A stretch of 64,000 nucleotides of DNA from Tachypleus tridentatus (GCF_004210375.1 NW_027467782.1:30669276-30733275); one strand, 5' to 3'. Positions 11,032 through 64,000 are shown, numbered from the stretch's first letter. Program-made: numbers and translations. The notes: generated from the letters alone by a model not told the origin.

Positions 11032-11039
11032 TTCACCAG

Positions 11040-11316
11040 GGCCTGGCATGGCCGCGTGTTAAGGCATGTGACTCGTAATCTGAGGGTTGCGGGTTCGCAT
11101 CCCCATCGCGCCAAACATGCTCGCCATTTCAGCTGTGGGGGCATTATAATGTTACGGTCAATCCCACTATTCATTGGTAAAAGAGTAGCCCAAGAGTTGG
11201 CAGTGGGTGGTGATGACTAGCTGCCTTCCCTCTCGTCTTACACTGCTAAATTAGGGACGGCTAGCACAGATAGACCTCGAGTAGTTTTGTGTGAAATTCA
11301 AAAACAAAACAATCTT
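11040..11316 (+). mobile_element. tRNA-derived SINE, copy 1
   Basis: The tRNA-like head carries an A-box-like segment and the B box GGGTTCGCATCC. The body reads CAATCCCACTATTCATTGG and AAGAGTAGCCCAAGAGTTGG, and the tail ends in AAAACAAAAC. Perfect flanking target duplications TTCACCAG lie at 11032-11039 and 11317-11324. Nearly the same sequence occurs at 26928. The family looks like one abundant in horseshoe crabs (from memory). The internal pol III promoter boxes are visible. Confidence 0.9.
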
Positions 11317-38500: not shown

Positions 38501-41500
38501 ATTAAAAGTACTTCCTTTTATCAAAAAATTTTCTTTCTTTCTTATTGTTGATTACAAATCCTAGTTCCATCTTACATATCTAGTCAATTTCAACTTGATT
38601 GAAAGTAACATTATTTCTTTTGACAGTTTATTTTGCCAGTTACAACTGTCACTGCCAGAAACAAAGATAAAACTGTCAAAAAATGTATGAGTGACCTATG
38701 GTCAGATCTTTGAAATTGAGATCAACGTTACTTTTGTCAGTCTAATTAACAATATTTTTGCTAAGAGTATTCTTGGACAGCATGAATTTATATCTAATAA
38801 TGTTTTTTTTTAATAGATATTAAATTATTTATGTGTATCTTATGAGTGCTATAAACTTAACAGTAACATTCAAGAAGAAATAGTTTGAATTATTAGAATA
38901 ATTTGTTTTTATTTACCGTACATGTTTACTTAGCTTATGTGCACTGAAGTCTTGTCATAGCTTTCAACAAATATAATGTAATATGAAAAACATGAATGTT
39001 AAAATAAACTATAATCCACTTTTGCATGTTACACCAAATGTTATAGCATTAAAAATACCAGTTGAACAGTGATTTTGATTTATATAATTATATAAGACAA
39101 CATTGTTTGTTTTTTGAATGCTGTGCAGTGTAAGACTACAGTGTTACTGCAATAGTAAATGATGCACAGGCAGATAGGTTTAAAAAAACTGCATCTAGGT
39201 TGAGTCAGGTGTCTAAAGCTCTGTTTGGTTGGTTAAACTTGCTCTTAGACTGTGTCAAATGTCTGTAGTTTTTTACTTTGGCACTGTAAGTATACAGACT
39301 GCTAAAATAGAGACTATACGAGGATAGCTTGTATTTCACACACCTACTAAGGTGCATTATGCTCACATATAGCAGGAAATGACTTGCTTCTTATTGTGCC
39401 AAGAACATACCAAGTGGACCAACAATATAAGAATAGTAATTTTACAAGTGAGCTATGTCTCACCCTGCTACCACATAACAGCTATGTGCTTATTTGATGA
39501 GTATCTGAGAGTCAGGTTAAATACCATATTCATATGGAGACATTGTACATATGATGGTGATTCAAGTTGGTGTTGACAGTAATGAACATTGGAAGACTTT
39601 GTTTTACGATCTTCTGATTGGACTACTAATGCCTTAAATTCTATTATCCTGTGTTCTGTCACATAATGAATTATGATTTTCATTCTAACTGTGTAGAAGT
39701 AATCAGTACATCGTCTTCAAAAAAGAGGGGATTGAGTGAAGTGTGTCACCAGTCTTCATATCCATTGTTCATGCATGAGATACTCTTGTGAGCTTCATCA
39801 CATCCTATGAAATAATTCAGAATACTGAAAATGCCCTGAAGGTATTTGTTTTTAATGGAGTGATTACTGATGCCTTAGAACTTAATGAACATTCTGATTT
39901 CGAGTATACAGCATCAGTGCTGTACTGCCTTTGTTGTTCATGGTGGTTGTCCTACATATTAAGATGAAATCCCCAGAATTGTGGAGGTGTAAAGATGACT
40001 GATTTATACCAAAATGAACTGAAAATGTGAGCTGAATAATGTGTTCACAGCAGTTTTTGCGTTATCATAGATGTTATAAATTACAAGAATCTATGAAATA
40101 TTTTGCTGCATATTTTAGTAGTAGAATTTTTAAAAGCAAAATGGAATGTGAAATAATTTTTTTAACGTTGATAATCAAGGTAGATTTTAATCTCACTAAA
40201 ATTTAGAATTAATATGTGTTATTATAAAAAGAAAAGCAAAACTTTTTTTATGTATTTGGGTCTATAGATCTACAGAGAGATTATGGCTGTTCTAAGCCAT
40301 GTTGACCAAGCTGAACAGAGCAAATTGAAGTTTCATGAGAAGACTGACCTTTGCCACTTGAGTGCCCAGACTGTGTTTTCAATATTGGATTGTTTAACGG
40401 TTTGGTGTCATCAGTATTTTGTGATGTTGAGATCTAGTAACCAGAATAACTCCAAGCCTGCAAATAAAGGGAAAGGTAGTTGGAATACTCATTAATTAAT
40501 CATGAGCTTAAGTTACTGGTATTTTATGTTCTTTTTCTTTGAGAAATTAAAGACTGTAAATATTATAAAACAATTAAAATGCCTGTTCTAGTCATTGATT
40601 AACAGCCTTATTTATGTTTTTTACAACATAAAAATGTCACTTTGCTAGGAAATAAGTAATGATTTATTAGGGTAATAATTTCAAAATTTGAAGCAGAGTT
40701 ACCAGAATATTTTCTCATGTAAAATAATTGAATTTACTACAAGACTTTCATCTGTAGAAGCTAGTGGTGGTAATAACTTTTGGGTAACAAATTTTCTACA
40801 GTGTTCTTTAAGAAAAATTAATTTCATTATTAGTCTAGCCTGTATTTCTAAAACTGTTGTGTTGCCTTTTAGATTCCTTTAGGTAGAGGAGAAGGTTTGT
40901 CCACTTAGTTGTTGTTACTTTCTCATTGTGTAAAGCATCATTCTTTGGCTACAGGTTGAGATCCAGTCATATATATTTATATACACACACAAAACATTGT
41001 GGTCCAATAACCCTAACCACTAACATGAGATACAGGTTTCATGACTGCCTAAATCCAACCTTGGCTACCTGGTTGAGGCTAACCTATACGAATGATTACT
41101 CGTATTCTGTTCCACCTTGGATATAAAAATTAAGTTTCAGGTGAAGAGCATATCTGTTCTGGAGGTAGTTCAGTTCTCCCACTCTTGTACTATTCTTTTC
41201 TTGGTATACTCCTGTTCTATGAAGACACTTTCTGTATGGATCATGCCTGCACCAGCCCCTCCACCTTCTTAACATGGGATTCTAGTGTCAGTAGATGGTA
41301 TATTTCGAAAGTTAACTGAACATGTATTTTCGATAATACTTACCTTCACTGACACTCTCCTGTTCTACCTTCCCACTAAAACCAAATGTATTTCTCAGAA
41401 AAAGTGACTGTGTTGTCAGGATGAGATGGTTATATACAGTACCTAGTTAGAAGGCACATTAAAGTTTGTGGAGCAGTTTGCTAGTTAGAACTTGTCTAAG

Positions 41501-47500: not shown

Positions 47501-50500
47501 TAATGTTGTAATCACTCACACAAAGCATAACTTTTCATAGTCTTCGATCTCATTTGTTACACATCCCAGAAATTGTAAATTTGTAAATCAGACCCAATTA
47601 GTGACCATGCCCACATAGATCACATCCTCTTGTTTCAGAAATTGCCAGTAGTTATCTGTGATGGTTAATACCACATTATGTGTAAATAATAGAAAGCCAA
47701 CATTCTAAGGCTGGTGTAGAATCTCTAGCATCAGGGAAACATTTGCTAAGGCTTTTATTCTCTTAACATCTTTGTATATTTTGGTTTTTTCTGATTTACT
47801 TTAGATAAATTTTGTTCCATGATTATGATATAGTGACCTAATTTTAATTCACTAACTTGACAGGTTCTCTTCTGCCAAAGAAAATCCACAGTCAATCTAA
47901 TGAGACTCTAATGAGGATGATTTGTTAGCTACATTCATTGGCACAACTGTTTGAGCATAAATGTCTTCTTTATTTATACTTCTGTGCATAAATGTCTTCT
48001 TTATTTATACTTCTGTACATAAATGTCTTCTTTATTTATACTTCTGTACATAAATGTCTTCTTTATTCATACTTCTGCACATAAATGTCTTCTTTATTCA
48101 TACTTCTGCACATAAATGTCTTCTTTATTTATACTTCTGCACATAAATGTCTTCTTTATTCATACTTCTGCACATACATAAATGTCTTCTTTATTCATAC
48201 TTCTGCACATAAATGTCTTCTTTATTCATACTTCTGCACATAAATGTCTTCTGTTATTCACACTTCTGTACATAAATGTCTTCTTTATTCATAGTTCTGT
48301 ACTAGTTTAATTGTTCTTCTGATACAGAAGAGCATTGTAAGTCCTCATTTATCTAAAGAAACTGTCCCAAGAGACATATCAGTTTGATTTGTTAAAACAG
48401 TGAGTGTTTATTTATCTCTTATTATGGAAAAAAAAAAAAAAAACTATTGTGCCTGCAACATGTATAATAAAATTGCATCATGATAAAATAAACTATAATT
48501 TGTACAATTTACAGAAATGAATAAAACATTGTTTTACAAGTAGTAAGATTAAAGTTTGTCATTTTTATATTCAAACTTTTATTGATTAAAGTTTCAATTA
48601 ATAATGTTTTATACAACACATTGAAAAACTCATTACTGCCACTTCACTGGAAATTCGTGGTTTCACTGAAAGTCTTTTCACTAGAGATGTAGTACTGTAA
48701 TATAAATAACAGTGAATCTTGTTTGTTTTTTTATTAGAAATTTGTTTAGAATAGCACTTGCTAATAATACCAGGAGGTTTAATGACCCTTCTTGTAGAGC
48801 TGGCTGTCTGGCAGCAAGTAGAGGAGGAATCCTTTACTTACTTTACCAATCGACTTCTGTTTATTTACTGTCCTGTTGACAAGCTCGTATTTTAGTTTTA
48901 CTGCTGTATCATACAGTTTCCTTTCTTCTGAATGTTGTGAGGAATACTTTCTATGGTTGTCACTTTTGCCATATTATTGCACGTGGAGCCATATTCTTTC
49001 ATTAGAATTGAGTGGATATGGCAGAGCTTGTTAACTGTCTCATTTACTTTTACCCCTATGTGGTATGGCACACAGTGACAGAGGATGGTCTTACTATACA
49101 GTTTCTTTATTTCTGTCATCCATATGGGAAAATACTGAATTACTGATATGATACCTTTCCTATACTAACATAATTGCTTTCCTAGAGTTGCGTTACACTC
49201 TCTTTGTATAAATTTTGCTTATCACTAGCCTTGAGACTTCTGTCCAGATTTATGTTTCCATGCAAATAAGTATGCAACAACCCTCCAACAGTAAGAGAGT
49301 AACACACTTTTCTAGCACAGCTGACTTCCTCCATTCTGAAGTATACAATCATCATTTCATGACTGGGCAGTTTATAAGCATTGGGTTTGTCTGTTGGCAG
49401 ATGTGACAGCTTTTGTACAGCAAGTGGTGGACAAGTTCATGAAGCCTCTGCCTTTCTTTTGTACATGACATATCTCCACTTATGTTTCTTGTTTGAGATG
49501 GAAGGAATTTTGTCAGTTTTTTTATTATTACCTGCATCCTAATCATGTACCAATGCTGGCTTGAAACTACCTAAACCTTTTTTATTCTTTTGTACAATTT
49601 AGTTTCCTCAAGTTTGTTTCATTCACCTTATTTCTGTAGAAATCTTCAATCTTACAATGGTGTTTTGGTGCATGCTCTTTTACTTATCTTTTCAACAGTT
49701 GTGTGTTTATCTTCTTCAGCATTATCCTTTCATATTTGGTTGATTTGTTGCTACCATTTGTTAGGAGCATAATGCCCTTGTTACTTAAGTCCTTTAACCC
49801 CACCCCTATTTTGTTCTCATATGTTTTCATCTGCCTGTGTAGTTTTACTAAAATATTGTAAAGTGTTTCATTTCTCTGTATTCTACATGGTATATCTCCC
49901 TTTCAGTGCAGTATGGAAGTTCTTGCAACTTACCAGTTTCTAACTGCTGGAGTGGTGGACCATGAAGGCTTCGTCAAGTGCATGACAACTTTCAATCAGT
50001 AGAGAGTAGGGTGGTGGTGCTCTGCTAGTGCATATAGTGTGTATCCTTTTACTACTGAGCAATGGATGAAAAATTCCCAATATTGTATGGTTTTCTGTTA
50101 AACAAGTCTGCCTCATGCATTTTACTCCTGGCTAACTTTTTCCCACATTTTACTATCACTTGAATATCAGTTCTCATGCAGTCTTGTGTTTGAGTCACAT
50201 ATAACCAGTCAGCATACGGCCTCCCATGTATGAATGATAGGGACCCTACACCTACCATGGACCAGACAAAAATTCCTGACACTACATGGTTTATGACTGG
50301 AGTTGACCCACCATGTTTGCATTCCCTTTTTTTTTACCATTTCCCAGGTGTTAAGTTCTCAGGTAGCCTTTTCTTAGTTGTGTACTGGGTCTTCAAACAT
50401 TTGCCGTATCTAAGTTGCCAGAAAAATGTTGCTTTTCCTTTCTGCTTCCTGCCATTGAAGTAAAGATTTTTGGGACCCTTCTCCTTCTGTAGACTAGAAG

Positions 50501-53500
50501 ACATGTATTCAATACTACCTGGTTTTGGACTAGAGTTAACCTACCATGTACTTTCTATTGCACCTAGCTACTACACCATCAAGCATATCCATTTTCCATA
50601 CTGGACTTGTTTTCTTGGTGACACGTATCTTCACTACAGGTGAAGACTATACCCTGCATGTGTGTTCCTATGCTTTTGTAGTATAGGGTATTGTGCTCCA
50701 TTGTTTTCTTCAGGCACTTTCTGAAGGGAGTTCACCTAAGTTGCTTTTGTTTTGGTTTCTCCACTGTTTTAGTGTGGGATTTAAGCTCTAATGTGAGGGT
50801 AGGTGAGATATTGTATTGAATGTTAAGGTTTTCCAATGTTGAAAATGTATTTCGTATAGGTACTTACCTCTGTCACACTTCCCACCCTTCTTGTTTACTT
50901 CCAGTACATCTTTAATTGAGTAATTTAAAGTGATAATTGAATAATTATTATAGATTATGCCAGCTGTGCTAGGATAGTACATCACACCCCTATTGGTGGA
51001 AAGTTGTCTCATGCTCATTTTTATACTACAGTTCATCAATAGCATGTGGAAATGTTAATTGAGGTGTGAGTCTCAAGGCTAGTGGAGAGTAACAAATTGT
51101 GCATGTGGAGGGCAGTATGACCTGAAAAAAAAATTGTTATGTGAGAGGATCTAAGTTTTTATTGCAAGTACATTTATGGTGTTGGAAAATTTTAACTTTA
51201 TACAGTACTGCCTGGAAATTGTTATCAGATATTATGTCATGGAACTTTCTATTTGCAGTTCATTGTTTTCCATAATCTAGAAAACAGCTTGTTGTGTGGC
51301 TTCCATCTCTGTTCTTGAACTTCTTGTATAAGACTTTAAGTTTCACAAGAAGAATGTGTTGTTTTGCAAGACAGTAAGTACCCAGTCGTCTCTCTGTTTA
51401 ATATAGGGACCATTTGTGAGTGCGATGACAGATCACTGCTTACATTTTAAATAACTGCTGACAAAATTTTTCTGATTCCCTCTTTGTCTTCTCTCTCTAT
51501 TTTCTGTTCAGGTTAATTACCACAGATTCCAGTGGTACCAGATGTTTATTTAACATGAGGAACTATGAAACAAGTTGGTGATCAGTTATCTTAATGGTGA
51601 CTCTTTAACATAGGTCCAACCATAACTGTATCTTTAGGTGCCATTTAGGTAGTCTCTTTCTTGATTGGTATCTGTAAATCATTGTGGAGCTGTAATTTCC
51701 CAACTAAAAAGGACAGTGGTTCAATGATGAACTTTCTAGAAAAGTTTATTTTTATTATTTTACATTTAACTTTGAAAAGTGAAAATTGCTTGATTCTGCA
51801 GAACACTTTAAGGCATTATAAACAAGGGAGAAAATACAAAAGATTAATAATTGGTGCAGCTATGTGTATTTTAATAGTCAATATAGTTTCAGTTAAAAGG
51901 TAATAAATGAAGTTCATTCTAAGAATGTGTATATTTTGCCTGCTAATTGTTCCATGTTACCTGTACCTTAGTACAGTTTTGTAACTCCATTTTTTATTTA
52001 TCAAATTTTTAGCAGATTTCTTCTGATAACTGGGGAGTTGCAGTTGGAAAAATTCTTCTTTCTGTTAAAGAAAAGGTATGAGAAACTTTTAATAACTAAT
52101 ATATAGTCATTTATATAACAAGTTTAATATGTAGTAACTTATGGATGACACTTTTTTGCCAAGTGCCCTTGTTTCTTAATTAGTAATTGTAAAAATTACT
52201 AATTAAGAAAGTAAATTTTAAAGTTAGCTTATTTACAACAAACAAACATACTTATCTCAAATAATAGGAACGTTTATGTTGATCTTTCCAGTGGTGGATT
52301 AAAGGTTGTATGTGCTTAGTGGCTAATAATCTTTGAGGGTCCTACAATGGGCCTCCATTAAGACCATAAGCCCTAGGGCTGAGCCCCTTCTAGCCCCAAC
52401 CTAAATGACCCATTGGATCTTTCAATTTAAATTATATTGTAGACTTTAAGAAAATGTTTATTGTGTTGCACTCTTGGTTTCACTCAGTGTCAAGCCTCTA
52501 ACATATTTGTACCACACACTGCAAAAGTAATTGTTGAGCATTTTAGTCATCCTAAGTGGTGCTCAGCAATAACATATGGTAAATGTACATTTTTATTCTT
52601 TAAGTTATGTTACATTTTGAAATTTGAATGACAGTATGATTACTTTCTAACATTTAATGTAGAATATCCTGTTTGTGAAATAAAATTTGGCATCAACATT
52701 ATCCATGTCTGTTCTTCTGTAATTTCAAAAGTAAATGTTGAGTTTTGTTTCTTTGTGCAACTTTTCAAACTGGAGACAGGCAAATGATTGAACAGAGACC
52801 ACTATTTGCAATATATGATGTATGGTCAAAAGTTCTAAGACTTCACTTTTATTGCACAGAACAATGTACATACATCAGTATTATATTATATCCCGTTCAA
52901 AGTAATCCCTCCAGCTAATACACACTTGTCCTGATGTTCCTGCCATTTTCGAAAGCCTTCAACTTTTGTGTGACTAAGTTCTGCTTTCACACAATTGTGG
53001 ATGGTTGGAATGTCATCAAATCACCTTCCTTTCAACTTAATTTTGATTTTGGGAACAGAACAAAATCACATGTGGCAAGATTGGGAGATTACAGGGGTGT
53101 GGTATCACAGGAATGTTTCTTTCTGCCAAACGTTCTTGAACAGATACAGCACTATGTGAAGGTGCATTGTCGTGACAGAGAAACCAATAATCATTTTCCA
53201 CAGCTCGCAGCAGTTTCTTCTAATTTCTTCCCTCAAGCAAATTAGGACCTTTTTATAAAATGCTTGGTTAACTGTCTGGCCATTAGGCACGCATTCATGA
53301 TGAACAATACCTTGAACATCAAAAAACACGATCAACATTGTCTTTACATTTGATCAAGACTGTCATGTTTTTTTGGAAGTGGTGATGATGGAGATTTCCA
53401 CTGGGGTGACTGAAATTTCGTTTCAGGGTCATAACTGTGTACCCATGACTCAATCACCAGTAATAATGATGTTGATGAAATTTGGATCAATTTCTAGCCT

Positions 53501-56500
53501 TCTTTTCAGATCCTCACACACTTGTTGATGGTGAAACTTTTGGTCATCCATCAACAGCCTTGGAAAAAATTTTGCAGACACTTGACACATGCAGAGTTTT
53601 TCAGCTAAAATCACATGACATAATGCAAAGGAAATGTTCAGTTTGTCAGCAATTTCATGAATAGTTAATCTTTGATGACTTTGACTATTTTCTTTCATCT
53701 TAGCAACCATTTCATCAGTGGATGATGTTGGTGATTGCCCAGAATGGGCGACATCTTGGAAGTGTTTTATCCACTGATAAACAACAGTTTTACTTAAGCA
53801 ATCATAATTAAAAGCAGTTCTTAACATTTCAATGATTTCTGTTCCTACTGTACCATTTTTCATAAAAAATTTGATGCAAACATGTTGCTTTTATTTTCTG
53901 TCCATTTATATTTCAACAGAAGCAAGAGATGCTTCTGTCTTTGAACACGGGTATAAGGTCTGGATAAGTGGTTTATCCGTGAGGTAGATCACTATTTGTA
54001 CTTTGTACACACCTCAGTAAAGCTTACTGCCTCTGTACTGGCACCTGTAACAGAAGAAATCTTTTTTGATCAGAACTCATATATAAGATATATCAAGTTG
54101 TTTATGAGTTATGTTTGGAATATTATTGTGTGAGTAAACATTCAAATAATAAATAATATATATTAAAACAAGAACACTTGAGTTCATGTCCTTTTTAAGT
54201 CACACAGTTTGAAAAATTATGAGTTCTCTTACATAGTAAAAGTTGAGCTAAGATTGTCCATTTCATTGATTCCATAAACTGTAGTGGAAAACTATTTTGT
54301 AATTTTAAAACAAATCGTCTTTTTTTTGCTATTACTTATTAGTCAAGAAAATATAATATCAACAAAAGTATCATATTTTGTAATTGTTATTGTATGTATG
54401 TATATATATTATCTACACTGTATGAATATTCAAACTAAATCTACATCATGGGAAAAGAAAATGGCTCCCTTTAAAGAACTATGTACATCTACTTATTGTA
54501 GTTGTTGTATATAGTTGAAATCTAGTCATTTATTTGAAAGGGATGAAAATAAGTATGTGTATCTGTATCATAGTAATAGTTCTTAGTTTAAATTTAGCTA
54601 TTTATTTGAAACAGATTAAAATAAGTATGTGCATTTGTTTATCCTAGTTATGGCTTTTATTTTAAATCTAGCTATTTATTTGGAACAGGTGACATAGAGA
54701 TTTGCATCTGTTTACCTTGTTTGTTGTCAGGGTGTTTTAGTTTATTGTATATATATGGGCTGGATTCTTTGTAGTTGGTGTCTGGGACTTGGCAACAAAT
54801 TTCAATAACAAACAAACAGCATACAGTTCTCTTGTTTCAGGTAATAATGTATTAAAACAATTAAAATGTATAAACAAATGTTTTTTTCATTATTTGCTAG
54901 CACAGTTGTATCTAGAGCATTAAATACTTGTCTTCTTTTCATCAAAATCCACATAGCTTGGTCCAGTTACTTTAGAATCCAATTCACAAAACAAATTAAT
55001 TCTTGTCTTCTATGTTGTTACAATATAGTTTGTGATAATTTCAAGTTAGAAATCACCAATATATGCTTTTTATGGCTAAACTCACAATCACACAGGCTAG
55101 ATCTATCTGTTCAATCAAACTAACCCAAACTACATTTTTGACACACATTTATAACCTCACAGAGGTCTTAAACATTCTTCACATTATGAGTTATTGTGAT
55201 AAAATAATATTCAATCAAAACAATGAGAAAAATTTAGAAGTTTCTAATAAAATAATGCAATAGTACAGCAAGTATAAATCACAGTCTGTGATTCATACAC
55301 AGAAAAGTAATTATAAACTACTGCTACTAAAAATAACTAAATTGAACACTCTCTCTTATACTACTTAAGTAATAACACTTACATTAAACTTAAACACTTG
55401 TGTGGATATAACAATAAGCTTCTCTTTAAGAAACGTGTTTACAATTATTTTTTGTACTATATACAAAGACTGTTTCCAGTTCATCCAAAAAATCTACTCA
55501 TACAGTCTTGCACCAACATTTGCAGTCCTCTTGTTGGATTCAGTGTGGGACCAGAAGTTCTTGGGGTACAATACCTAACTCATGATTATTGCACAGTCAG
55601 TTTTATACTTCTGGATCTTTGCAAGTGGTTGATGATTCATTTGGATGATGAACTCCTTCCATACAGACTGTTGAAGAAGTTCCAAATGTCAGTATGGTGG
55701 CCAAACACTTCTTGAGTCACAGATCTCACTGCTCAGTGTCTTTCTGAACAGATCCCTGAGTTTCTTCAGATGGTTACATCATACACAATGTTGGTGGTTT
55801 TTTTTGCAACATTTTTCTCATCAAGAAGTTGAATGCTGCTGCTGAATTGATTAATCCAGATGGCATCTTTCTTGAATTGGTACCATTCATCAGGTGTCAA
55901 AAAGGCTCTTTAAACTTTGCCAATACACTTTTCTGAGATTGACCTTAGTGACGAACTTGGGCCCATTTATTTTCACTGCAATAGCATCTGGGTTGCCCAT
56001 AGGTTTGGAGCCAAATTCTGTCATAAAGTTTATTTTCTGGAAATCTGTACAGATGGTTGTGAGACATTCATGGTCTTCATGATTACCACCAGTGAACAGT
56101 AAACTTAATTCAAAGGCCCAGTTATTCCAGCTTCTAACATTACTTTAACTTTTAGCTTAATCAGGCTTTTATTATGTAGAACATTTGGTAGGGCTTCACT
56201 TTGACTGAGTTCTTGGTCATAGTCACAGTCTGTCTGGCTTTATCTGTCTGTGGAGACAGATGCACACTGCTACTTCTTTCTTCAATTTGTCATTAATTTC
56301 TTCATTGATGTTGACACTTTTGTACATGTCATCTACACCCAGTGGTCTCAGATTTTCATATTTTTTTGTGTGTGTGAAAATTACTAACCTTCAGATGAGT
56401 TTGTTGTGTCTTTAAGGAACAGAAACCTTCTTACTGAAATGTTAATCCTTCGACTTCTTAGGTGTTAGTTGTCCAATCAAGTCCATGGCAACTGTGTTGG

Positions 56501-59472
56501 ATAGCACTCCTATAAGAGACATTTCATCTCATGGCTCTATGGCTACATTCATTCTAGGTAGAGTCCCTTTATTTTGTATGCCATCTTCTTTATTCCTTGG
56601 TGTCATTTCACAAGTTACTTGTTGGCCAACTTCTTCATTACTTGAGTCTAGTGCTTTGTTGGTACAATGATCTGTTTAACTTCTGGTAGAAGTGCTTTGA
56701 TAGATCTGATACAGCACTTCCTTCTGATTCTCTGTTCTGTATATCCTTTTTTTCCTCATTTTTGTGCTCAATTGTCTCTTAGACATTGTTTCAAAGTTTC
56801 ATCATTGAAGGGTCTTTCTTCTGTGCTTCCTTCAATTCCCATAGACATACATACACAATGTCACTTTTTGAGATTTTCAGAGGGTTGATGTTTTGCTTGC
56901 TTTTATTTTTTTGAATTCTTGTGGTGACTGCAGATACTTCATCAGCCTCCTTTCTGTCTGGTTTTTTCAAATTTCTGTTGTCAGGTATATTGCTGATTAC
57001 CATGTCATAAATGGGTGCTTTCTTATGTGTTGTCTCAAGGTCTCCCACATAGTATGGAGTTCCCCTTTATTGTTACTATAGGAAACTTTCTCACTGTCCC
57101 ATCAGTCAGCACACATATATGTACTTTTGCCACTATCTGGTCATTTGATACTAGAGTAATTCTCACTTCTGCTCCCAGTGTTTCATTTCACTGTCATGTT
57201 TTTGTTGCCAAACATAGTGTTCACCTACTGATAAGTTGTGATTGATCCGTTTGTTAATTTGAACTGACTGTCATTCAAGTACTGTTTAATCATGAATTAT
57301 TTTATGTGATTTCTGGCAACAGTGACAATCATTCTTCTCTAGTATCTTACTAGCACCATCTTTGTAGGTAACTCTAACTGCTTGATTTGAGATTCTTGTT
57401 GGTTGCAAACCTGCAATCATATCACAATATGTCTCATTTTCTAACAAGTGTAGTATCTCCCATTTGTCTGATGACTTCTTGTCACCTGTGGTGGCATCCT
57501 GCTTGTAATCCCTCTTCTTGGCTTTGAATGGTTATGATTGGATTTGCCTGTTATGTTCTCCCCATGGGCTTCCACATACTATTTTGCCAGCTTGATCATC
57601 TTTATCATGTCATTTGGTGCTCTTTCTGGTACAAAAAATGACATGTAAGTGGAGTACATGATAATGAATTATTCATCTGTTAGTAGGTTTACCAGTCCTT
57701 CAAAACTATCTTCACACTTGGCCATGTAAATTCACCTTGTGAAATATTGCTGTAGACATGCCACAAACTGAAATATAGTTTCTCTAGTGTCAACTTTGCC
57801 TTTTCTAAATTCTAACAAAAACCATCCTATGTAATTTCATTGCATTTCAGCAAGGCAATTTTTAACATATTCTAGTCCATGGCATCTTCTGATATTACAC
57901 CTACATACACTTGTAGTCCTTTTACTGTGAAAAGGAAACTAAGCAAAAATGTCAAATTGTTTTTGTCCCAGTTTTGACCTTGAGGGGTGAATCCTTCACT
58001 TCTCATTAGATCATTCATGTTGTCTTTCTATTCATCAAGTTTTGTCAGCCCATTGTTAATGATCCTTCAATTTGCTTGTTAAACTTAGTGACTTCAAGTT
58101 GTACTGTTATATTCTCTTTGTTTTTTAGTCTCTCCTCTCTCTCAGTTTCCAGTTTTTTCATTTCTTTTTCAGCCTTTCTTTTTCTTCTCTTTTTTGTTAT
58201 TTGTTTCTCTCTTTATGTCTTGTTGTTGTGTAACAAACTCTCATATATCACCATCTTTAAGGCTAAGTTATTTGCCCTTCACCATCCACTTATCAAAGCC
58301 AGTTAAAATGGTGTATATGTGGCCTCTACAATATTTATTCTATTGCTTCAGCTGTGAATTTATAGGCCTATGCTTTACAGTAAGTGTCTGACTTGTTGGC
58401 ATTTCAACAGTGAAGAAACAGCATAGAGTTCACTTTTTTTAAATAACAGTAAATTAAAACAAGTCAAACATATATTCAAATGTTCATTACACTGTTGGCT
58501 ATTACAGTTGTATCCAAATCTTTAAATTGTTGTCTCCTTTTCTTAAAGCTCACACAATCTTGTTCATATATATTTTTACTTTGTTGTTACAATACAGTCT
58601 GTGATAATTTCACTTCAGAAATAACCAGAATACACTCTTTATGGCTAAACTCCCACTCAGACTGTCTAGATATATCTAAGTGACCAACTCAAAGTGCATT
58701 TTGGATGCATATTTGTTGTCTGAAAGAGGCCTCAGTTGCTTTACACAATGGTTTTCATGGGATATTATGATGCAATAATTTGTGATAGTGTGAAAATTGT
58801 TGGAAGGTTCTACTGACATGATTCAGCAATATACAACAAGTGCCAATTCACAACAATTTAATCAAAGTATGATACATGCACAGCTACGTAACAAACCTGT
58901 GGTAAACCATCTCCACAAAAAAATAAGTGAATTTAACACCAAAGATGTATTCAAACTGTTTAAATCTACCTGTTCATTGAGAGCATATGAAAATAAGTTC
59001 ATACCATGAATGTGATGTTATGTAGAAGATCTTGTAACATAAATTTTCAATTAATTTTGATTTTGCCATTGGTTATAATCATACACAACATTATAGCAAA
59101 GTTCTTGAGAAAAACTTAGTTTCCTTCCTGAGTTTTAAAGTATAATCATAGTATAAATAAACTTTTGTATCTCCATAAGAAAATAAATGCTTTAATTAAC
59201 AAAGATGTATTTCCAACATTCAAGTGCAATATATATTTTTTTATATGTTAGTAATGTAAATGTATTTGGAAGAAGTGAAGAGGCATGTCACTTAAAGATT
59301 ATTCATGTCTCTAGGAAATATTCAAAATACTTTTGGATTGATGTGGTAAATTTTGTTCCACCCTTGACTATCTCACATAGTGTAAAATTGTAAGAACTCA
59401 GCAGATGGGACCTTTATCAGCAGCCTCCATGGAAAATGGTGCATACCAGCGTGGATACAGTCACGTTCTCAG
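17402..59472 (+). CDS. ATR: ATR-like checkpoint kinase gene (HEAT-UME-FAT part, multi-exon)
   Basis: Gene-level entry; exons are listed separately. ATR is a nuclear PI3K-like kinase that, with ATRIP, senses RPA-coated single-stranded DNA and phosphorylates CHK1 and other targets. From 17.4 to 59.5 kb about twelve exons on the + strand match consecutive segments of human ATR from roughly residue 900 to 1860: the HEAT segment before UME, UME, the RLDFS...DSSFAYGL region, the FAT start and the PLSAASFERGSYQRGY segment. The C-terminal FAT, kinase and FATC domains must lie to the right. Clean exons: 17402, 21127, 32820, 36712, 37153, 37935, 40268, 45744 and 52013. Disrupted: the exons at 19534, 23981 and 59381, with phase problems at 18045 and 37266/37935. 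Segments expected in 24.1-32.8, 40.5-45.7 and 45.9-52.0 kb were not found. Decaying paralogue or indel-prone assembly; both remain open. Confidence 0.85.
18045..18215 (+). CDS. ATR: ATR exon: EIGSLLR...HNELLLHI segment
   Basis: The frame reads TNIEIGSLLRCDYQRIHNEL, LLHISTHYEQVFSGLAMLA and ends KPITKPEDI before GTAATG. Human ATR: TEIELGSLLRQDFQGLHNELLLRIGEHYQQVFNGLSILA. The 5' boundary is uncertain: ACTGAG| gives a phase clash with the previous exon, while the earlier ACAG| at 18022 would add a frame with a stop. One base may be lost here. Confidence 0.85.
18216..19533. other. ATR intron
   Basis: AT-rich. At 19131 CAGTGGTGCACAAACTTTTG followed by GGGCCACAAACGG resembles one terminus of a hAT element; no matching right end was seen nearby. 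Confidence 0.5.
19534..19624 (+). pseudogene. ATR: ATR exon: start of UME domain, frame broken
   Basis: One frame gives ILQSRLL. The next frame gives GFLAFFDSQLLNANFPLEEK ahead of the donor CTA|GTAGGT. Human ATR: LQPKLLGILAFFNMQLLSSSVGIEDKKMA. The halves join only if one base is missing in the T-rich run near 19556-19560. An indel error in a homopolymer or a true frameshift would look the same. Confidence 0.75.
19625..21126. other. ATR intron
   Basis: At 19915-20110 a degenerate SINE-like stretch is visible (GGCATTGCCCAGTGGTTAG head, CATGCTTTCAGTTGTGAG, GTGAATCCCATTATTTGAC), resembling an old relative of the tRNA-derived SINE. No exon seen elsewhere in it. Confidence 0.4.
21127..21284 (+). 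CDS. ATR: ATR exon: UME domain core
   Basis: Acceptor TTATTTTAG and donor ATAA|GTATAT. The frame ALGSLNSIMELMGPKHITAV continues RMKVMATLKIAIHFTEEDFP and ends TQAWNTFVHK. Human ATR: ALNSLMSLMKLMGPKHVSSVRVKMMTTLRTGLRFKDDFPELCCRAWDCFVR. Intact; ends in phase 2, fitting the next exon. Confidence 0.95.
21636..23680 (+). mobile_element. TTAA-flanked non-autonomous DNA element (piggyBac-like), copy A
   Basis: The left end is CCCTTTTCAGATGGGTCAC and the right end CCGAGCCCATGTTGAAAGAG, the latter reading CTCTTTCAACATGGGCTCGG in complement: imperfect terminal inverted repeats. TTAA lies immediately outside both ends (21632-21635 and 23681-23684), the target duplication of piggyBac-type elements. About 2.0 kb, no coding potential. 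Other copies: 41943, 45891 and fragments at 15780 and 25-28 kb. Confidence 0.8.
23981..24098 (+). pseudogene. ATR: ATR exon: end of UME domain, frameshift and in-frame stop
   Basis: Acceptor TGTGTCAG and donor AACAG|GTATGA, in the right phase. The first frame reads NVELQSLDPFLT. The next frame reads QVMTALLPLLQFHPQGVATI, then FHF, a TAG stop and LLKT. Human ATR: CLDHACLGSLLSHVIVALLPLIHIQPKETAAIFHYLIIENR. A frame change near 24015 and a TAG at 24082-24084 replacing the residue after HF are seen directly. This is the best single evidence that the copy is not functional, unless the reads are wrong. Confidence 0.8.
24218..24395 (+). mobile_element. tRNA-derived SINE, old 5'-damaged copy
   Basis: The body matches the SINE at 11040: AAGAGTTGGCAGTGG, TGATAACTAGTTG and AGTGCAGATGGCC, with an AAAACAAAAAC tail. 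The head is poorly preserved. Confidence 0.65.
24780..25079 (+). repeat. Degenerate ~55-bp minisatellite, left half
   Basis: Units vary around GCATC.TTT.AGAGC.AAAAC and TTCATGAAGATGTAATA. The same motif resumes at 28352, so this is one array split by the elements at 25080-28347. Confidence 0.65.
25080..26621 (+). mobile_element. TTAA-type element, tandem copy 1
   Basis: Begins CCCTATCCACTGAGG and ends near AAAGAGGTCACGTGGTTGGTC, the right end shared with the element at 21636. Internal strings TTTAATAG.ATGTAAGTTTT and AAAATCAGA recur in the next copy at the same spacing. No coding potential. Confidence 0.6.
26622..28347 (+). mobile_element. TTAA-type element, tandem copy 2 (with SINE insert)
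   Basis: Begins CCCTATTTCACCC directly after copy 1 and ends ATTCATGATGAGAGGG followed by TTAA (28348-28351). It carries a complete SINE at 26928-27199. Minus the SINE and its duplicated target it is about 1.44 kb, close to copy 1. Confidence 0.6.
26928..27199 (+). mobile_element. tRNA-derived SINE, copy 2
   Basis: GGCTCGGCATGGCCAAGC head, GGGTCGTGGGTTCG B-box region, CAATCCCACTATTCGTTGG body. Flanked by perfect 12-bp target duplications TCTCTCACTAAC at 26916-26927 and 27200-27211. Younger looking than the host element. Confidence 0.93.
28352..28970 (+). repeat. Degenerate ~55-bp minisatellite, right half
   Basis: Repeating pattern TTTCATGACTATTTGACATT, ACAGGTCTTGTTACATC and TTTAGAACCAAAAACAC, about ten degenerate units. 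Continues the motif of 24780-25079. Confidence 0.75.
29000..30150. other. ATR intron, no clear feature
   Basis: The part from about 29150 on is less AT-rich and may be the upstream part of the LINE remnant that follows, but I see no diagnostic motif. Confidence 0.35.
30160..30960 (+). mobile_element. Jockey-like LINE, ORF1 remnant
   Basis: Frames on the + strand read LLPLATVNSLQGVIVESNLK, NIPELEILLV and LPTSVVILTFKLLHL. They continue CTFCGGKDHNAYEYKLEPHC (a CCHC zinc knuckle), CLRWVEEKEVQCFKT and FSPTHFRHMLLH. This is the gag-like ORF1 of Jockey/CR1-type non-LTR retrotransposons: the family pattern is NSSKGVI...VPE.EIL...LPTN.VVLTF, then CCHC knuckles, then CPRWVEEKEIQ..K. Several stops and frameshifts; the first knuckles are poorly preserved. 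ORF2 was not recognised, although 31.0-31.8 kb may hold decayed remains. The 141-residue - strand frame here is a shadow. Confidence 0.75.
30961..32500. other. ATR intron, possible LINE downstream debris
   Basis: The first part continues the texture of the LINE remnant but shows no reverse transcriptase motif; the rest is AT-rich intron. A run of T lies at 32439-32456. Confidence 0.35.
32568..32734. repeat. 51-bp inverted repeat next to an ATR exon
   Basis: The left arm 32568-32618 contains GATATTAGAACTTTAATTAA; the right arm 32684-32734 is its complement with about four mismatches, separated by 65 bp. It could be a foldback or MITE. The right arm ends 85 bp before the exon at 32820. Confidence 0.85.
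32820..32955 (+). CDS. ATR: ATR exon: SVEDENFAYDLVQEL segment
   Basis: Acceptor TTTGTTTTTAG and donor CAA|GTGAGT. The frame reads LEMRRLNENQKSSFFYLSVE then DENFAYDLVQELVRSFLAAE. Human ATR: RLDFSTTETQGKDFTFVTGVEDSSFAYGLLMELTRAYLAYADNSRAQ. Intact; ends in phase 0, as the next exon requires. Confidence 0.93.
32956..33680. other. ATR intron, no feature seen
   Basis: AT-rich; no exon or repeat recognised. Confidence 0.4.
33690..35670 (+). repeat. Unclassified long dispersed repeat, copy 1
   Basis: Shares with 49.1-50.9 kb the string GAGGTGGTTGACCCTGTAGG (GAGTGGTGGACCATGAAGG there), AATCAATTACAGAATAGGGT / AATCAGTAGAGAGTAGGGT, then GGTGGT. It ends in a GAAAATGTATTTTCAATGTA-type terminus. CT-rich, about 2 kb, no recognised coding motif on either strand. 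Confidence 0.6.
35776..36546 (+). repeat. 38-bp minisatellite
   Basis: Unit GATACCTTATATCTTTCACA plus GTAAACACAGTCACACGT, about 20 copies. A larger duplication with 356-bp period is visible: the unusual segment with ACAACGTGATACTT and CTTTCTTCTATATC occurs near 36021 and again near 36377. Confidence 0.95.
36509..36574. repeat. Perfect 28-bp stem at the array edge
   Basis: The last array unit (36509-36536) is followed after a 10-nt loop by its exact reverse complement (36547-36574), forming a 28-bp perfect hairpin. It lies about 140 bp upstream of the exon at 36712. Confidence 0.95.
36712..36860 (+). CDS. ATR: ATR exon: DCASYALQETLQIY segment
   Basis: Acceptor TTTTTTGTAG and donor TCTAG|GTATGT. 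The frame DCASYALQETLQIYTCQSGE continues PSGSLWNRFSEEVQEILVPL. Human ATR: DSAAYAIQELLSIYDCREMETNGPGHQLWRRFPEHVREILEPHLNTRY. Intact; phases fit on both sides. Confidence 0.95.
37153..37266 (+). CDS. ATR: ATR exon: IYGSKLGSTFKDW segment
   Basis: Acceptor TTTGATAG and donor AGAAG|GTAAGA. The frame YIMSSNKRTSFPCPIYGSKL continues GSTFKDWACNWASCLL. Human ATR: YKSSQKSTDWSGVKKPIYLSKLGSNFAEWSASWAGYLI. The open frame is clean. The phase 2 end does not fit the phase 0 start of the next exon, so one base may be missing at that junction. Confidence 0.93.
37935..38072 (+). CDS. ATR: ATR exon: FLLPHIMVNVL segment (FAT start)
   Basis: Acceptor ATTTCTCAG and donor GAT|GTTTGT (weak). The frame IKRENTARVFQSCFMIVKND continues VKTAVFLLPHIMVNVLQDAS. 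Human ATR: VRHDLASKIFTCCSIMMKHDFKVTIYLLPHILVYVLLGCNQEDQQEV. Ends in phase 0, as the next exon requires. Confidence 0.93.
38073..40267. other. ATR intron, no clear feature
   Basis: No exon or repeat identified. The open frames at 39.4-39.7 kb show only a faint transposase-like impression, which I did not accept. Confidence 0.4.
40268..40475 (+). CDS. ATR: ATR exon: EIMAVLSHVDQ...LSAQTVFSILD segment
   Basis: Acceptor GTCTATAG and donor GAAAG|GTAGTT. The frame IYREIMAVLSHVDQAEQSKL continues DLCHLSAQTVFSILDCLTVW. Human ATR: VYAEIMAVLKHDDQHTINTQDIASDLCQLSTQTVFSMLDHLTQW. Intact. Confidence 0.95.
40476..41942. other. ATR intron with fragment of the long dispersed repeat
   Basis: From about 41.0 to 41.4 kb the texture and a terminus CATGTATTTTCGATAATACT followed by TACCTTC match the ends of the repeats at 33.7 and 49.1 kb. 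The rest is AT-rich. Confidence 0.45.
41943..43505 (+). mobile_element. TTAA-type element, copy B
   Basis: Left end TCCTTTTACAATGGGTCATG preceded by TTAA (41939-41942). The sequence tracks copy A throughout (for example ATCAAA.TGTAGATTATAAT and GTGGAATTCTATGGTATCAG). The right end is degraded to AAGGG followed by CTAA. About 1.56 kb, older than copy A. Confidence 0.75.
43776..43912 (+). pseudogene. ATR: Candidate decayed ATR exon (QDTLAVASF segment)
   Basis: After TTTAACAG the frame reads KQDMSAVSFEKLIS then stops. Further on, GAFILKGSKCDD appears in another frame. Human ATR has IPQDTLAVASFRSKAYTRAVMHFESFITEKKQN in the gap between the exons at 40268 and 45744, where this piece lies. The match is short and interrupted, so it may be chance. 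Confidence 0.3.
44395..44745 (+). repeat. Degenerate ~80-bp tandem repeat
   Basis: About four units sharing TTGA.ATG.AA.C, ACTA.GACCTCA.GATG.CTG and GGTTCTGTTGTT..CAGAATA. The two best copies start 80 bp apart (about 44588 and 44668). Confidence 0.7.
44746..45743. other. ATR intron, no feature seen
   Basis: AT-rich; short TA repeat at 45661. No exon recognised. Confidence 0.4.
45744..45849 (+). CDS. ATR: ATR exon: DEPDGVAGVAA segment (FAT)
   Basis: Acceptor TTTGTCTTAG and donor ACTG|GTATGT. The frame KLYILLDEPDGVAGVAASRQ continues EDPTLHDLILGHEAT. Human ATR: KLYAAMHEPDGVAGVSAIRKAEPSLKEQILEHESLG. EPDGVAGV is a hallmark of the ATR FAT domain. Intact. Confidence 0.97.
45891..46130 (+). mobile_element. 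TTAA-type element, copy C (left end only)
   Basis: TTAA at 45887-45890 followed by CCCTTTCCAGATGGGTCATG and GTCAAAGGCCAC, then family sequence to about 46130. The rest is missing. It starts only 41 bp after the ATR donor at 45850. Confidence 0.75.
46275..46402 (+). mobile_element. Second SINE family, tRNA-like, (AC)n tail
   Basis: The head contains GGTACAGCAGTAAG and the B box GGGGTTCAATTCCCC; the body AGCAGATAGCCAGATGTGGC; the tail is (AC)n. Perfect 12-bp target duplications ACTAATTGATTT lie at 46263-46274 and 46403-46414. Distinct from the SINE at 11040. Confidence 0.9.
46415..47955. other. ATR intron with rearranged TTAA-element fragments
   Basis: At 47225-47320 the sequence is the reverse complement of the start of the elements at 25080/26622 (AAGAACTTAAAACTTGTATAC). 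At about 47585 AAATCAGACCC and following bases match their interior in the direct orientation. No exon recognised in 46.4-47.9 kb. Confidence 0.5.
47956..48303 (+). repeat. 31-bp minisatellite
   Basis: Unit CATAAATGTCTTCTTTATTC plus ATACTTCTGCA, about eleven copies with minor variants (TTTATT/TTCATT, GTA/GCA) and a few small indels. Confidence 0.95.
49100..50900 (+). repeat. Unclassified long dispersed repeat, copy 2
   Basis: Homologous to 33.69-35.67 kb (see that entry). It contains an internal repeat (TTTATGACTGGAGTTGACCC near 50291 and TTTTGGACTAGAGTTAACCT near 50522). It ends GTTGAAAATGTATTTCGTAT followed by AGGTACTTACCTCTG, the complement of a strong 5' splice site. Confidence 0.6.
52013..52075 (+). 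CDS. ATR: ATR exon: SDNWGVAVGKILLSVKEK segment
   Basis: Acceptor AATTTTTAG and donor AAAAG|GTATGA. The frame QISSDNWGVAVGKILLSVKE K matches human ATR GKSTTWSVRLGQLLLSAKKRD. Short and open. About 80 residues expected between this and the exon at 45744 were not found. Confidence 0.85.
52172..52210. repeat. Perfect 17-bp hairpin
   Basis: TTTCTTAATTAGTAATT (52172-52188), 5-nt loop, exact complement (52194-52210). About 100 bp downstream of the exon at 52013. Confidence 0.85.
52289..52415. mobile_element. hAT-type MITE with 8-bp target duplication
   Basis: Starts CAGTGGTGGATTAAAGG and ends AATGACCCATTG (CAATGGGTCATT in complement). Perfect 8-bp direct repeats GATCTTTC flank it at 52281-52288 and 52416-52423, the hAT hallmark. 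127 bp, non-coding. Confidence 0.8.
52826..53880 (-). mobile_element. Mariner-type DNA transposon, decayed
   Basis: On the - strand the transposase starts at 53863 (MKNGTVGTEIIEMLRTAFNY). A helix-turn-helix region follows (TIHEIADKLNISFALCHVIL), then AKFFPRLLMDDQKFHHQQVC, and IIITGD near 53450 carries the first catalytic Asp. LIVFFDVQGIVHHECVPNGQ (near 53335) and CHDNAPSHSAVSVQ (near 53170, second Asp) lie further on. At least two frame changes and a truncated C-terminus make it inactive. The opposite-strand frames are shadows. Terminal repeats not resolved. Confidence 0.9.
54513..54715 (+). repeat. Three ~73-bp tandem repeats
   Basis: Units start AGTTGAAATCTAGTCATTTA, AGTTTAAATTTAGCTATTTA and TTTTAAATCTAGCTATTTAT, at about 54513, 54585 and 54659. 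Confidence 0.75.
54779..55430 (-). repeat. LTR of the Gypsy-like fossil (left, 3' LTR)
   Basis: Aligns in order with 58385-59010: CAACA..GAA.AACAGCATA, CTTGTCTTC/GTTGTCTCC, TTGTTACAATA.AGT.TGTGA and ATGGCTAAACTC. End position approximate. Confidence 0.7.
58385..59010 (-). repeat. LTR of the Gypsy-like fossil (right, 5' LTR)
   Basis: Partner of the repeat at 54779. The gag-like end of the interior adjoins it, giving the - orientation. Confidence 0.7.
59381..59472 (+). CDS. ATR: ATR exon: GPLSAASMENGAYQRGY segment (FAT)
   Basis: Acceptor CTCACATAG and donor CTCAG|GTAATT. The frame KIVRTQQMGPLSAASMENGA continues YQRGYSHVLR. Human ATR: LKLVRAEQIVPLSAASFERGSYQRGYEYIVR, an unmistakable match. Just upstream the neighbouring frame reads TISHSVKL, which would align with the human residues ahead of VRAEQ, so the true exon may start further left with one base missing near 59391. 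Its 3' half and donor are the apparent source of the 61-bp array that follows. Confidence 0.92.
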
Positions 59473-59558
59473 GTAATTATATTAAATCTCCATTTATATA
59501 AAAGTATAAATCACCATACATGTTATCATGTTCTTCAGTAATTTTTTATATCTACTTA

Positions 59559-59690
59559 CAAGGGAATAGTTAATACCAGTGTGGATTCCACCATGATCTC
59601 AAGTGATTGCAATTAATTTTATTTCTATTTACAAGATAAATTGTATGTACCAGGGTAGATATAATGTTCTCACGTAACTGTTTTTATCAC
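59559..59690 (+). repeat. Two diverged copies of the ATR exon-donor segment
   Basis: TTACAAGGGAATAGTTAATA, CCAGTGTGGATTC and CTCAAGTGATTG (from about 59557), then TTACAAGATAAATTGTATGT, ACCAGGGTAGATATAATG and TTCTCACGTAACTG (from about 59630). Both align with the exon end ATGGAAAATGGTGCATACCA, GCGTGGATAC, GTTCTCAGGTAATT. They are intermediate in sequence between exon and 61-bp unit. Confidence 0.75.
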
Positions 59691-59847
59691 ATTATAAGAA
59701 AAGTGATGCATTTCATGCTTACAGAATTAAGAAATAAGAGTTTAAATGAAAGTAACTAACAAAGGATTAACAATCATATTGACAAAAGTCTTAAAGTAAT
59801 GGGGACAAAATAAACTGAAGAAGCAAAAATATAAAAGTTCTGAGGTT

Positions 59848-62800
59848 ACATGGAGAATGGTACATATCATTGTGGATATCTTTGAAGTAATTGTTTTAAT
59901 GTCTAATTACATGGAGAATGGTACATATCATTGTGGATATCTTTGAAGTAATTGTTTTAATGTCTAATTACATGGAGAATGGTACATACTGTGGATATCT
60001 TGAAGTAATTGTTTTAATGTCTAATTACATGGAGAATGGTACATATCATTGTGGATATCTTTGAAGTAATTGTTTTAATGTCTAATTACATGGAGAATGG
60101 TACATATCATTGTGGATATATTTGAAGTAATTGTTTTAATGTCTAATTACATGGAGAATGGTACATATCATTGTGGATATCTTTGAAGTAATTGTTTTAA
60201 TGTCTAATTACATGGAGAATGGTACATATCATTGTGGATATCTTTGAAGTTATTGTTTTAATGTCTAATTACATGGAGAATGGTACATATTGTGGATATC
60301 TTTGAAGTAATTGTTTTAATGTCTAATTACATGGAGAATGGTACATATCATTGTGGATATCTTTGAAGTAATTAATTTTAATGTCTAATTACATGGAGAA
60401 TGGTACATATTGTGGATATCTTGAAGTAATTGTTTTAATGTCTAATTACATGGAGAATGGTACATATCATTGTGGATATCTTTGAAGTAATTGTTTTAAT
60501 GTCTAATTACATGGAGAATGGTACATATCATTGTGGATATCTTTGAAGTAATTGTTTTAATGTCTAATTACATGGAGAATGGTACATATCATTGTGGATA
60601 TCTTTGAAGTAATTGTTTTAATGTCTAATTACATGGAGAATGGTACATATCATTGTGGATATCTTTGAAGTAATTGTTTTAATGTCTAATTACATGGAGA
60701 ATGGTACATATCATTGTGGATATCTTTGAAGTAATTGTTTTAATGTCTAATTACATGGAGAATGGTAGATATCACTGTGGATATTTTTGAAGTAATTGTT
60801 TTAATGTCTAATTACATGGAGAATGGTACATATCATTGTGGATATCTTTTAAGTAATTGTTTTAATGTCTAATTACATGGAGAATGGTACATATTATTGT
60901 GGATATAATCTTTGAAGTAATTGTTTTATATGTCTAATTACATTGTGGATATCTTTGAGAATGGAGAATGGTACATATCATTGTGGATATCTTTGAAGTA
61001 ATTGTTTTAATGTCTAATTACATGGAGAATGGTACATATCATTGTGGATATCTTTGAAGTAATTGTTTTAATGTCTAATTACATGGAGAATGGTACATAT
61101 CATTGTGGATATCTTTGAAGTAATTGTTTTAATGTCTAATTACATGGAGAATGGTACATATCATTGTGGATATCTTTGAAGTAATTGTTTTAATGTCTAA
61201 TTACATGGAGAATGGTACATATTGTGGATATTTTGAAGTAATTGTTTTAATGTCTAATTACATGGAGAATGGTAGATATCACTGTGGATATTTTTGAAGT
61301 AATTGTTTTAATGTCTAATTACATGGAGAATGGTACATATTGTGGATATCTTGAAGTAATCATTTTAGTGATTAATTACATGGAGAATGGTACATATTAT
61401 TGTGGATTGTGGATATCTTTGAAGTAATTGTTTTAATGTCTAATTACATGGAGAATGGTATGTGGATATCTTTGAAGTAATCAATTACATGGAGAATGGT
61501 ACATATCATTGTGGATATCTTTGAAGTAATTGTTTTAATGTCTAATTACATGGAGAATGGTACATATTATTGTGGATATAATCAATTGTGGATATCTTTG
61601 AATATCTAATTGTTTTAATGTCTAATTACATGGAGAATGGTACATATCATTGTGGATATCTTTGAAGTAATTGTTTTAATGTCTAATTACATGGAGAATG
61701 GTGGATATAATTACATGGAGAATGGTACATATCATTTGTTTTAATGTCTAATTACATGGATGGTATGTGGATATCTTTGAAGTAATTGTTTTAATGTCTA
61801 ATTACATGGAGAATGGTACATATCATTGTGGATATCTTTGAAGTAATTGTTTTAATGTCTAATTACACATGGAGAATGGTAATTACATATTGTGGATATC
61901 TTTGAAGTAATTGTTTTAATGTCTAATTACATGGAGAATGGTACATATCATTGTGGATATCTTTGAAGTAATTGTTTTAATGTCTAATTACATGGAGTGG
62001 ATATGAAGTATTGTTTTAATGTCTAATTACATGGAGAATGGTACATATCATTGTGGATATCTTTGAAGTAATTGTTTTAATGTCTAATTACATGGAGAAT
62101 GGTACATATCATATTTTGAAGTTTTGATTGTTTTAATGTCTAATTACATGGAGAATGGTACATATCATTGTGGATATTTTGAAGTAATTGTTTTAATGTC
62201 TAATTACATGGAGAATGGTACATATCATTGTGGATATCTTTGAAGTAATTGTTTTAATGTCTAATTACATGGAGAATGGTACATATCATTGTGGATATCT
62301 TTGAAGTAATTGTTTTAATGTCTAATTACATGGAGAATGGTACATATCATTGTGGATATCTTTGAAGTAATTGTTTTAATGTCTAATTACATGGAGAATG
62401 GTACATATCATTGTGGATATCTTTGAAGTAATTGTTTTAATGTCTAATTACATGGAGAATGGTACATATCATTGTGGATATCTTTGAAGTAATTGTTTTA
62501 ATGTCTAATTACATGGAGAATGGTACATACATGGAGAATGTCTAATTACATGGACATATAATTGTGGAATACATATCATTGTGGATATCTTTGAAGTAAT
62601 TGTTTTAATGTCTAATTACATGGAGAATGGTACATATTGTGGATATCTTTGAAGTAATTGTTTTAATGTCTAATTACATGGAGAATGGTACATATCATAT
62701 GTGGATATCTTTGAAGTAATTGTTTTAATGTCTAATTACATGGAGAATGGTACATATCATTGTGTGGATATCTTTGAAGTAATTGTTTTAATGTCTAATT

Positions 62801-64000
62801 ACATGGAGAATGGTACATATCATTGTGGATATCTTTGAAGTATTGTTTTAATGTCTAATTACATGGAGAATGGTACATATCATGTGTGGATATTTTTACA
62901 TGAAGTAATTGTTTTAATGTCTAATTACATGGAGAATGGTACATATTGTGGATATCTTGAAGTAATTGTTTTAATGTCTAATTAATGGAGAATACATGGA
63001 GAATGGTAATTGTTTTAATGTCTAATTACATTGTGGTGGATATCTTTAATTGAAGTAATTGTTTTAATGTCTAATTACATGGAGAATGGTACATATCATT
63101 GTGGATATCTTTGAAGTAATTGTTTTAATGTCTAATTACATGGAGAATGGTACATATCATTGTGGATATCTTTGAAGTAATTGTTTTAATGTCTAATTAC
63201 ATGGAGAATGGTACATATCATTGTGGATATCTTTGAAGTAATTGTTTTAATGTCTAATTACATGGAGAATGGTACATATCATTGTGGATATCTTTGAAGT
63301 AATTGTTTTAATGTCTAATTACATGGAGAATGGTACATATCATTGTGGATATCTTTGAAGTAATTGTTTTAATGTCTAATTACATGGAGAATGGTACATA
63401 TTATTGTGGATTGTGGATATCTTTGAAGTAATCGTTTTAGTGTCTAATTACATGGAGAATTGGTACATATCATTGTGGATATCTTTGAAGTAATTGTTTT
63501 AATGTCTAATTACATGGAGAATGGTACATATCATTGTGGATATCTTTGAAGTAATTGTTTTAATGTCTAATTACATGGAGAATGGTACATATCATTGTGG
63601 ATATCTTTGAAGTAATTGTTTTAATGTCTAATTACATGGAGAATGGTACATATCATTGTGGATATTACATTTGAAGTATATTTTGTTGTTTTAATGTCTA
63701 ATTACATGGAGAATGGTACATATCATTGTGGATATCTTTGAAGTAATTGTTTTAATGTCTAATTACATGGAGAATGGTACATATCATTGTGGATATCTTT
63801 GAAGTAATTGTTAATTACATGGAGAATGGTACATATCATTGTGGATATCTTTGAAGTAATTGTTTTAATGTCTAATTACATGGAGAATGGTACATATCTT
63901 TGAAGTAATTGTTTTAATGTGTTTATATATCTTTGTAATTGTTTTAATGTCTACATGGAGAATGGTACATATCATTGTGGATATCTTTGAAGTAATTGTT
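59848..64000 (+). repeat. 61-bp tandem array derived from ATR exon/5' splice site
   Basis: Unit: ACATGGAGAATGGTACATAT, CATTGTGGATATCTTTGAAG, TAATTGTTTTAATGTCTAAT, T. Roughly 65-70 copies reach the window edge and probably continue. Many units are identical. Common variants lack the CATCA/CATTG portion or read TAGATATCACTGTGG, and a few scrambled patches occur (near 60930, 61700, 62530 and 62990). The unit matches the ATR exon end at about 26 of its first 32 bases and then GTAATT plus intron-like sequence after a short gap. Confidence 0.97.

Follow-up and report, generated by a model that had tools for sequence, protein, structure and literature searches.

A 61-bp tandem array in an ATR intron of Tachypleus tridentatus, probably seeded by the end of a coding exon and its splice donor

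In a 64,000-nt stretch of the Tachypleus tridentatus genome, analysed as one strand and hereafter called the window, an exon of the ATR gene is followed in its intron by a tandem array of 61-bp units that resemble the 3′ end of that exon together with its 5′ splice site. The array very probably originated by neutral tandem duplication across the splice donor and then expanded locally and recently. An initial annotation, made from the sequence alone, had proposed local duplication of the ATR exon-intron boundary and later amplification within the gene's own intron, and the comparisons reported here support that proposal. The array continues past the window edge, and lengths and counts refer to the part in view.

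The array is real, as had been claimed: Tandem Repeats Finder reports a period of 61 and its multiples from 59846 to the end of the window. We located 64 anchors (ATGGAGAATGGTA), spaced by exactly 61 bp in 34 of 63 cases, and the 61-bp consensus is matched exactly at 31 places, which account for 46% of the array bases. The array is homogeneous, and these 31 exact units indicate recent expansion. In total it spans about 68 unit lengths, at least 4.1 kb, inside the gene. No match to the window was found in Rfam at gathering scores, and the exact 31-bp core of the unit had no match in viral contigs or in prokaryote genomes, which is what one would expect of animal DNA.

Exon and array unit are identical at 25 of 30 bases without a gap. 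The local alignment of 59381-59500 with the unit scores 35, which none of 2,000 dinucleotide shuffles reached (best 29). The earlier description of this match (about 26 of 32 bases, a gap, then GTAATT and early intron) was correct in substance; it had allowed that the likeness might prove no better than that of shuffled sequences, and this did not occur. When the unit was used to scan the pre-array part of the window, the top pieces (scores 45, 35, 34 and 32) were the exon and the stretch adjoining it, and the next piece scored 30. The exon end also matches the pre-array intron, with scores of 28 and 22 under two scorings; these were reached by 0 and 0 of 3,000 shuffled introns and by 2 and 0 of 3,000 shuffled exons. 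For the other ATR exon in the window, the self-duplication score against its own downstream DNA was 11.5, under the window median of 14.5.

The exon encodes CKIVRTQQMGPLSAASMENGAYQRGYSHVLR. Searched with phmmer against solved-structure sequences up to E 10, this peptide found three ATR matches only, aligning with residues 1824-1853 of 23ew_A at E 1.2e-05; Pfam gave no match for the exon taken alone. Its 3′ boundary reads CAG/GTAATT at 59472/59473. Farther upstream, 40268-40492 matches the same three ATR sequences (E 6.8e-08, residues 1548-1609 of 23ew_A), with one more match that is unrelated (E 1.8), and the exon within it hits Pfam M-HEAT_ATR at E 0.0013, under the curated cut-off. The two peptides are collinear with ATR. 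Lying in gene order, and both on the + strand, the pieces fit a multi-exon ATR gene and not a stray fragment. Candidates for further ATR exons were picked by base composition, and the one that was searched is this upstream piece, short of a full search of the interval between the two exons.

Similarity alone has no direction, so that an array that came first and lent part of itself to the exon (exonisation) would produce the same match. We regard this as extremely improbable, as 9 of 16 residues of the matching exon peptide, SMENGAYQRGYSHVLR, are common to the ATR chains of the Protein Data Bank (PDB; by eye). The exon was named as the source in the initial annotation, and because its peptide is common to ATR chains of the PDB, the protein comparison likewise shows the exon to be the source of the repeat.

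Between exon and array we identified three decayed copies (c1, c2 and c3; Table 1). Along the intron the order is exon, weak c1, c2, c3, about 150 bp without a detectable copy, and array. The donor-like GT sites of the exon, c1, c2 and c3 lie at 59473, 59538, 59603 and 59674, with spacings of 65, 65 and 71 bp. In comparisons with the exon end, the c2 score was reached by 0 of 3,000 shuffles under both scorings, and the c3 score by 5 and 0 of 3,000. The two diverged copies that had been noticed at 59559-59690 are real (0/2000 shuffles each against the circular seed described below), and the weaker c1 sits on the exon side of them.

The description of these copies as intermediate steps is not supported. 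Agreement with the exon segment is 42/61 for the array consensus, 31/61 for c1, 43/69 for c2 and 39/62 for c3, and the array is nearer to the exon than c1-c3 are. The array consensus is nearly as similar to c2 (40/60 positions) as to the exon segment, and agrees with c3 at 36/58 and with c1 at 31/54, while c1-c3 show 51-61% identity among themselves and 51-63% to the exon segment. A five-leaf tree gave supports of 43 and 63, which do not settle the branching order. The copies c1-c3 may be old, decayed sisters and the array a separate, recently expanded descendant; the array could also have been derived by a chain through c2.

Table 1. Features of the ATR exon-array locus in the window.
Feature	Coordinates	Strand	Basis or remark
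Upstream ATR exon	40268..40475	+	phmmer match of 40268-40492; AG/GT boundaries by eye
ATR exon, 92 nt, CKIVRTQQMGPLSAASMENGAYQRGYSHVLR	59381..59472	+	phmmer E 1.2e-05; translation; ACATAG acceptor and CAG/GTAATT donor read
Inferred seed: last ~45 bp of exon and first ~25 bp of intron	59427..59497	+	End-point grid; circular matches
Putative decayed copy c1, immediately following the seed; donor-like CAGTAATT 65 bp past exon donor	59498..59558	+	Weak
Decayed copy c2; donor-like AAGTGATT	59559..59631	+	0/2000 shuffles vs circular seed, z 6.8
Decayed copy c3; donor-like CACGTAACT	59632..59693	+	0/2000 shuffles vs circular seed, z 7.8
Stretch without detectable copy	59694..59845	+	Two pieces tested
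61-bp tandem array, reaching the window end	59846..64000	+	Tandem Repeats Finder; unit statistics

We estimated the extent of the copied segment with an end-point grid (step 2) and with circular matching of a 70-bp seed, 59428-59497 (45 bp of exon and 25 bp of intron). In the grid, 59427-59497 was best for the array dimer, with a score of 51.5 as against at most 34.5 for an exon-only seed. When scores for the array, c2 and c3 were summed, the best end points were 59427-59495, 59429-59497 and 59431-59499. The circular seed scored 35 against the array, 29.5 against c3 and 26 against c2, each reached by 0 of 2,000 shuffles. Elsewhere in the window, on both strands, no segment equalled the scores of the exon, c2, c3 or the array: the best of 3,936 overlapping 90-bp comparisons with the seed gave 23.5, and none reached 26.

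An exon-only seed is disfavoured, as the upstream part of the units fits the early intron over the upstream exon in the array (11 versus 4), c2 (10.5 versus 5) and c3 (11 versus 5). TTACA, previously listed as an array feature missing from the exon, finds its best match in the early intron. Taken alone, the short AT-rich upstream piece has a modest fit to the early intron, reached by 24, 62 and 76 of 2,000 shuffles for the array, c2 and c3, respectively. In the alignments, the array unit lacks about 8 bp around ACAGTCACG relative to the seed. A duplication at CTCCAT microhomology (59425 and 59488, found by reading) was indistinguishable from c1 homology, and we make no claim for it.

These data bear on the possibility that the array belongs to a genome-wide satellite and inserted here from elsewhere, its likeness to the exon being chance or secondary. 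The roughly 150 bp without a detectable copy, which separate c3 from the array, would suit such an arrival. Against it, when the pre-array sequence is scanned with the unit, the exon and the directly adjoining stretch match best, none of the 3,936 comparisons elsewhere in the window attains the score of c2, and one set of end points is jointly best for the array, c2 and c3 (for c2 and c3, only this joint optimum is given). On these comparisons within the window, a landed satellite appears improbable.

Several results weigh against a seed at the exon-intron junction, or against parts of that account. The first concerns c1, whose circular score of 16.5 was reached by 34 of 2,000 shuffles and whose exon-end score was reached by 144 and 74 of 3,000; its global alignment beat 3,000 of 3,000 shuffles, with end points picked after inspection. 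Second, no copy is detectable in the 152 bp that precede the array: for the two pieces tested, 74 to 474 of 1,000 shuffles reach the scores against the seed and array unit. Third, an exon stretch with six intron bases fits c2 and c3 as well by shuffles (z 7.8 and 8.7, versus 6.8 and 7.8 for the circle), and for the array the z values are 10.1 and 10.8, respectively. The evidence that the seed crosses into the intron is thus less firm and comes chiefly from the raw scores and the scan of end points. Fourth, under the stringent scoring 12 of 1,304 other 360-bp blocks match the exon end equally (0 of 1,304 under the lenient scoring), and under the two scorings 16 and 7 of 918 other segments are as similar to the 360 bp that follow them; the top cases fall at the N run and at local duplications. 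In a similar comparison, the exon scores 25.0 against the DNA downstream of it, between the 95th (20) and 99th (62.9) percentiles of the window.

Resemblance of a segment to its neighbourhood is not in itself rare in the window, and the evidence is the mutual match of the exon, c2, c3 and the array. Judged by these alignments and their shuffles, the four are homologous. The exact end points of the seed are less firm than this homology because the z values of c2 and c3 are no better with the circle, and the status of c1 as a copy is likewise less firm.

We also considered whether the copies could be what is left of a genuine duplication of the exon, giving rise to a mutually exclusive or an alternative exon. 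By eye, c2 and c3 each follow a pyrimidine-rich stretch that ends in ACAAG, like a 3′ splice site, both retain donor-like GT sites, and c3 is open in the exon's frame across about 13 codons (by eye). However, the best-fitting seed omits the first ~46 nt of the exon as well as its acceptor, so that no whole exon with acceptor and donor was found to be copied, and c2 carries an in-frame TAA (read from the alignment). Such a duplication is scarcely probable.

The array as written may be partly an artefact of assembly or consensus building, with true copies multiplied or garbled. Among consensus stretches of at least 10 bp (shorter ones were left out) there are 53 junctions, 47 of which change phase and 6 of which are in phase. 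Several units are scrambled mosaics, and the 54 of 64 intervals sized 50-72 bp contain 34 indel events as well as 18 base substitutions. On the other side, 30 of these 54 units equal the consensus, and the unit, c2 and c3 are independent of array length. We consider a partial artefact unlikely overall, with a chance that is nonetheless appreciable, and the irregularity may reflect either real slippage in a young array or assembly consensus error.

Across 59846-64000, indel-type changes exceed substitutions. Microhomology at internal junctions showed no clear excess, with at least three overlapping bases at 4 of the 47 phase-changing junctions versus 6.6% under a random-jump null. Hairpin-driven expansion was rejected: folding of the unit does not surpass that of its shuffled versions (z +1.06), nor does the seed stand out (z -1.06).

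Returning to duplication across the splice donor, we infer the order of events and their neutrality as follows. Replication slippage or unequal exchange would have placed tandem duplicates of a ~70-bp segment, made up of the 3′ end of the ATR exon and the start of the next intron, inside that intron. Since this segment would have taken in only the terminal part of the exon and no 3′ splice site, the extra copies (c1, c2 and c3) would have been free to decay. One descendant may then have lost ~8 bp of its exon-derived part, giving the 61-bp unit, and recent local amplification of this unit would have built up at least 4.1 kb of repeats. The array is most likely functionless and is presumably spliced out with the intron.

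The array holds 56 sense copies of GAAGTAATT, which appear to descend from the exon's donor CAGGTAATT. Compared with the U1 consensus, which we take to be CAGGTAAGT, the array version matches at 6 of 9 positions and the exon's own donor at 8 of 9. One could imagine the array as a bank of decoy 5′ splice sites next to the true donor in ATR, a checkpoint kinase gene, with array length adjusting U1 binding, the speed of splicing or the dosage of ATR. We regard this as very improbable; nothing in the analysis speaks for a decoy role, and absence of function is likeliest.

By unit length the array fits a minisatellite (head-to-tail units of ~10-100 bp), having a period of 61 and ~68 unit lengths. 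It shares with those intronic minisatellites that arise from local unique sequence a short head-to-tail unit, a position within a gene and a homogeneous, recent core. It differs from them in that its seed can be named, as the end of a conserved coding exon with its splice donor, and in that decayed copies lie beside the exon. In the strict sense, satellite DNA comprises hundreds to thousands of units, is usually heterochromatic and occupies many loci. The earlier term satellite-like was generous for a single intronic array with ~68 unit lengths seen.

Tandem exon duplication is a known concept, and here too exon sequence was tandemly copied inside its own gene. The difference is that the copied piece comprises the latter half of the exon with ~25 bp of intron and yields no complete second exon. 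According to a review, satellite repeats could in theory arise from any sequence, and the seeds named there are ribosomal spacer and transposable elements (PMC5615363). The array resembles the satellite DNAs of that review in being a tandem family that probably came from pre-existing sequence of another kind, and differs in that the seed is a protein-coding exon-intron junction and one local array was seen. In a literature search with narrow terms, no title or opening of an abstract described a tandem array that had grown from the end of a coding exon with its donor, and absence from print is not implied.

Other repeats and open frames were noted in the window. Between the two ATR exons, a 31-bp tandem array occupies 47956-48302 (11 copies, 93% matches), and 38-bp tandem repeats with a 356-bp higher-order period lie at 35764-36547 (93% matches; both by Tandem Repeats Finder). 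A run of 310 N at 1-310 is an assembly gap. The open frame at 9088-9390 matches the SMN Tudor domain over the cut-off (Pfam PF06003, E 1.2e-05). On the - strand, an open frame at 53450-53890 is mariner transposase-like by eye, its Pfam matches, to HTH and others, all being sub-threshold, and open frames within 55890-57531 are retrotransposon pol-like by eye (55890-56144 and 57286-57531 are without a Pfam match). Two further - strand frames, 11004-11216 and 26802-27107, encode a near-identical peptide (TANSWATLLP...) without a Pfam match and are probably a dispersed repeat.

For many tandem arrays the starting sequence is difficult to identify, because the seed has decayed or moved. At this locus the seed would be held in place by coding constraint, with decayed sister copies adjoining it and a young array after them, so that the path from unique sequence to array may be readable at one place and can be tested in related species. 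The locus also presents a case in which splice-donor sequence appears to have been multiplied within an intron.

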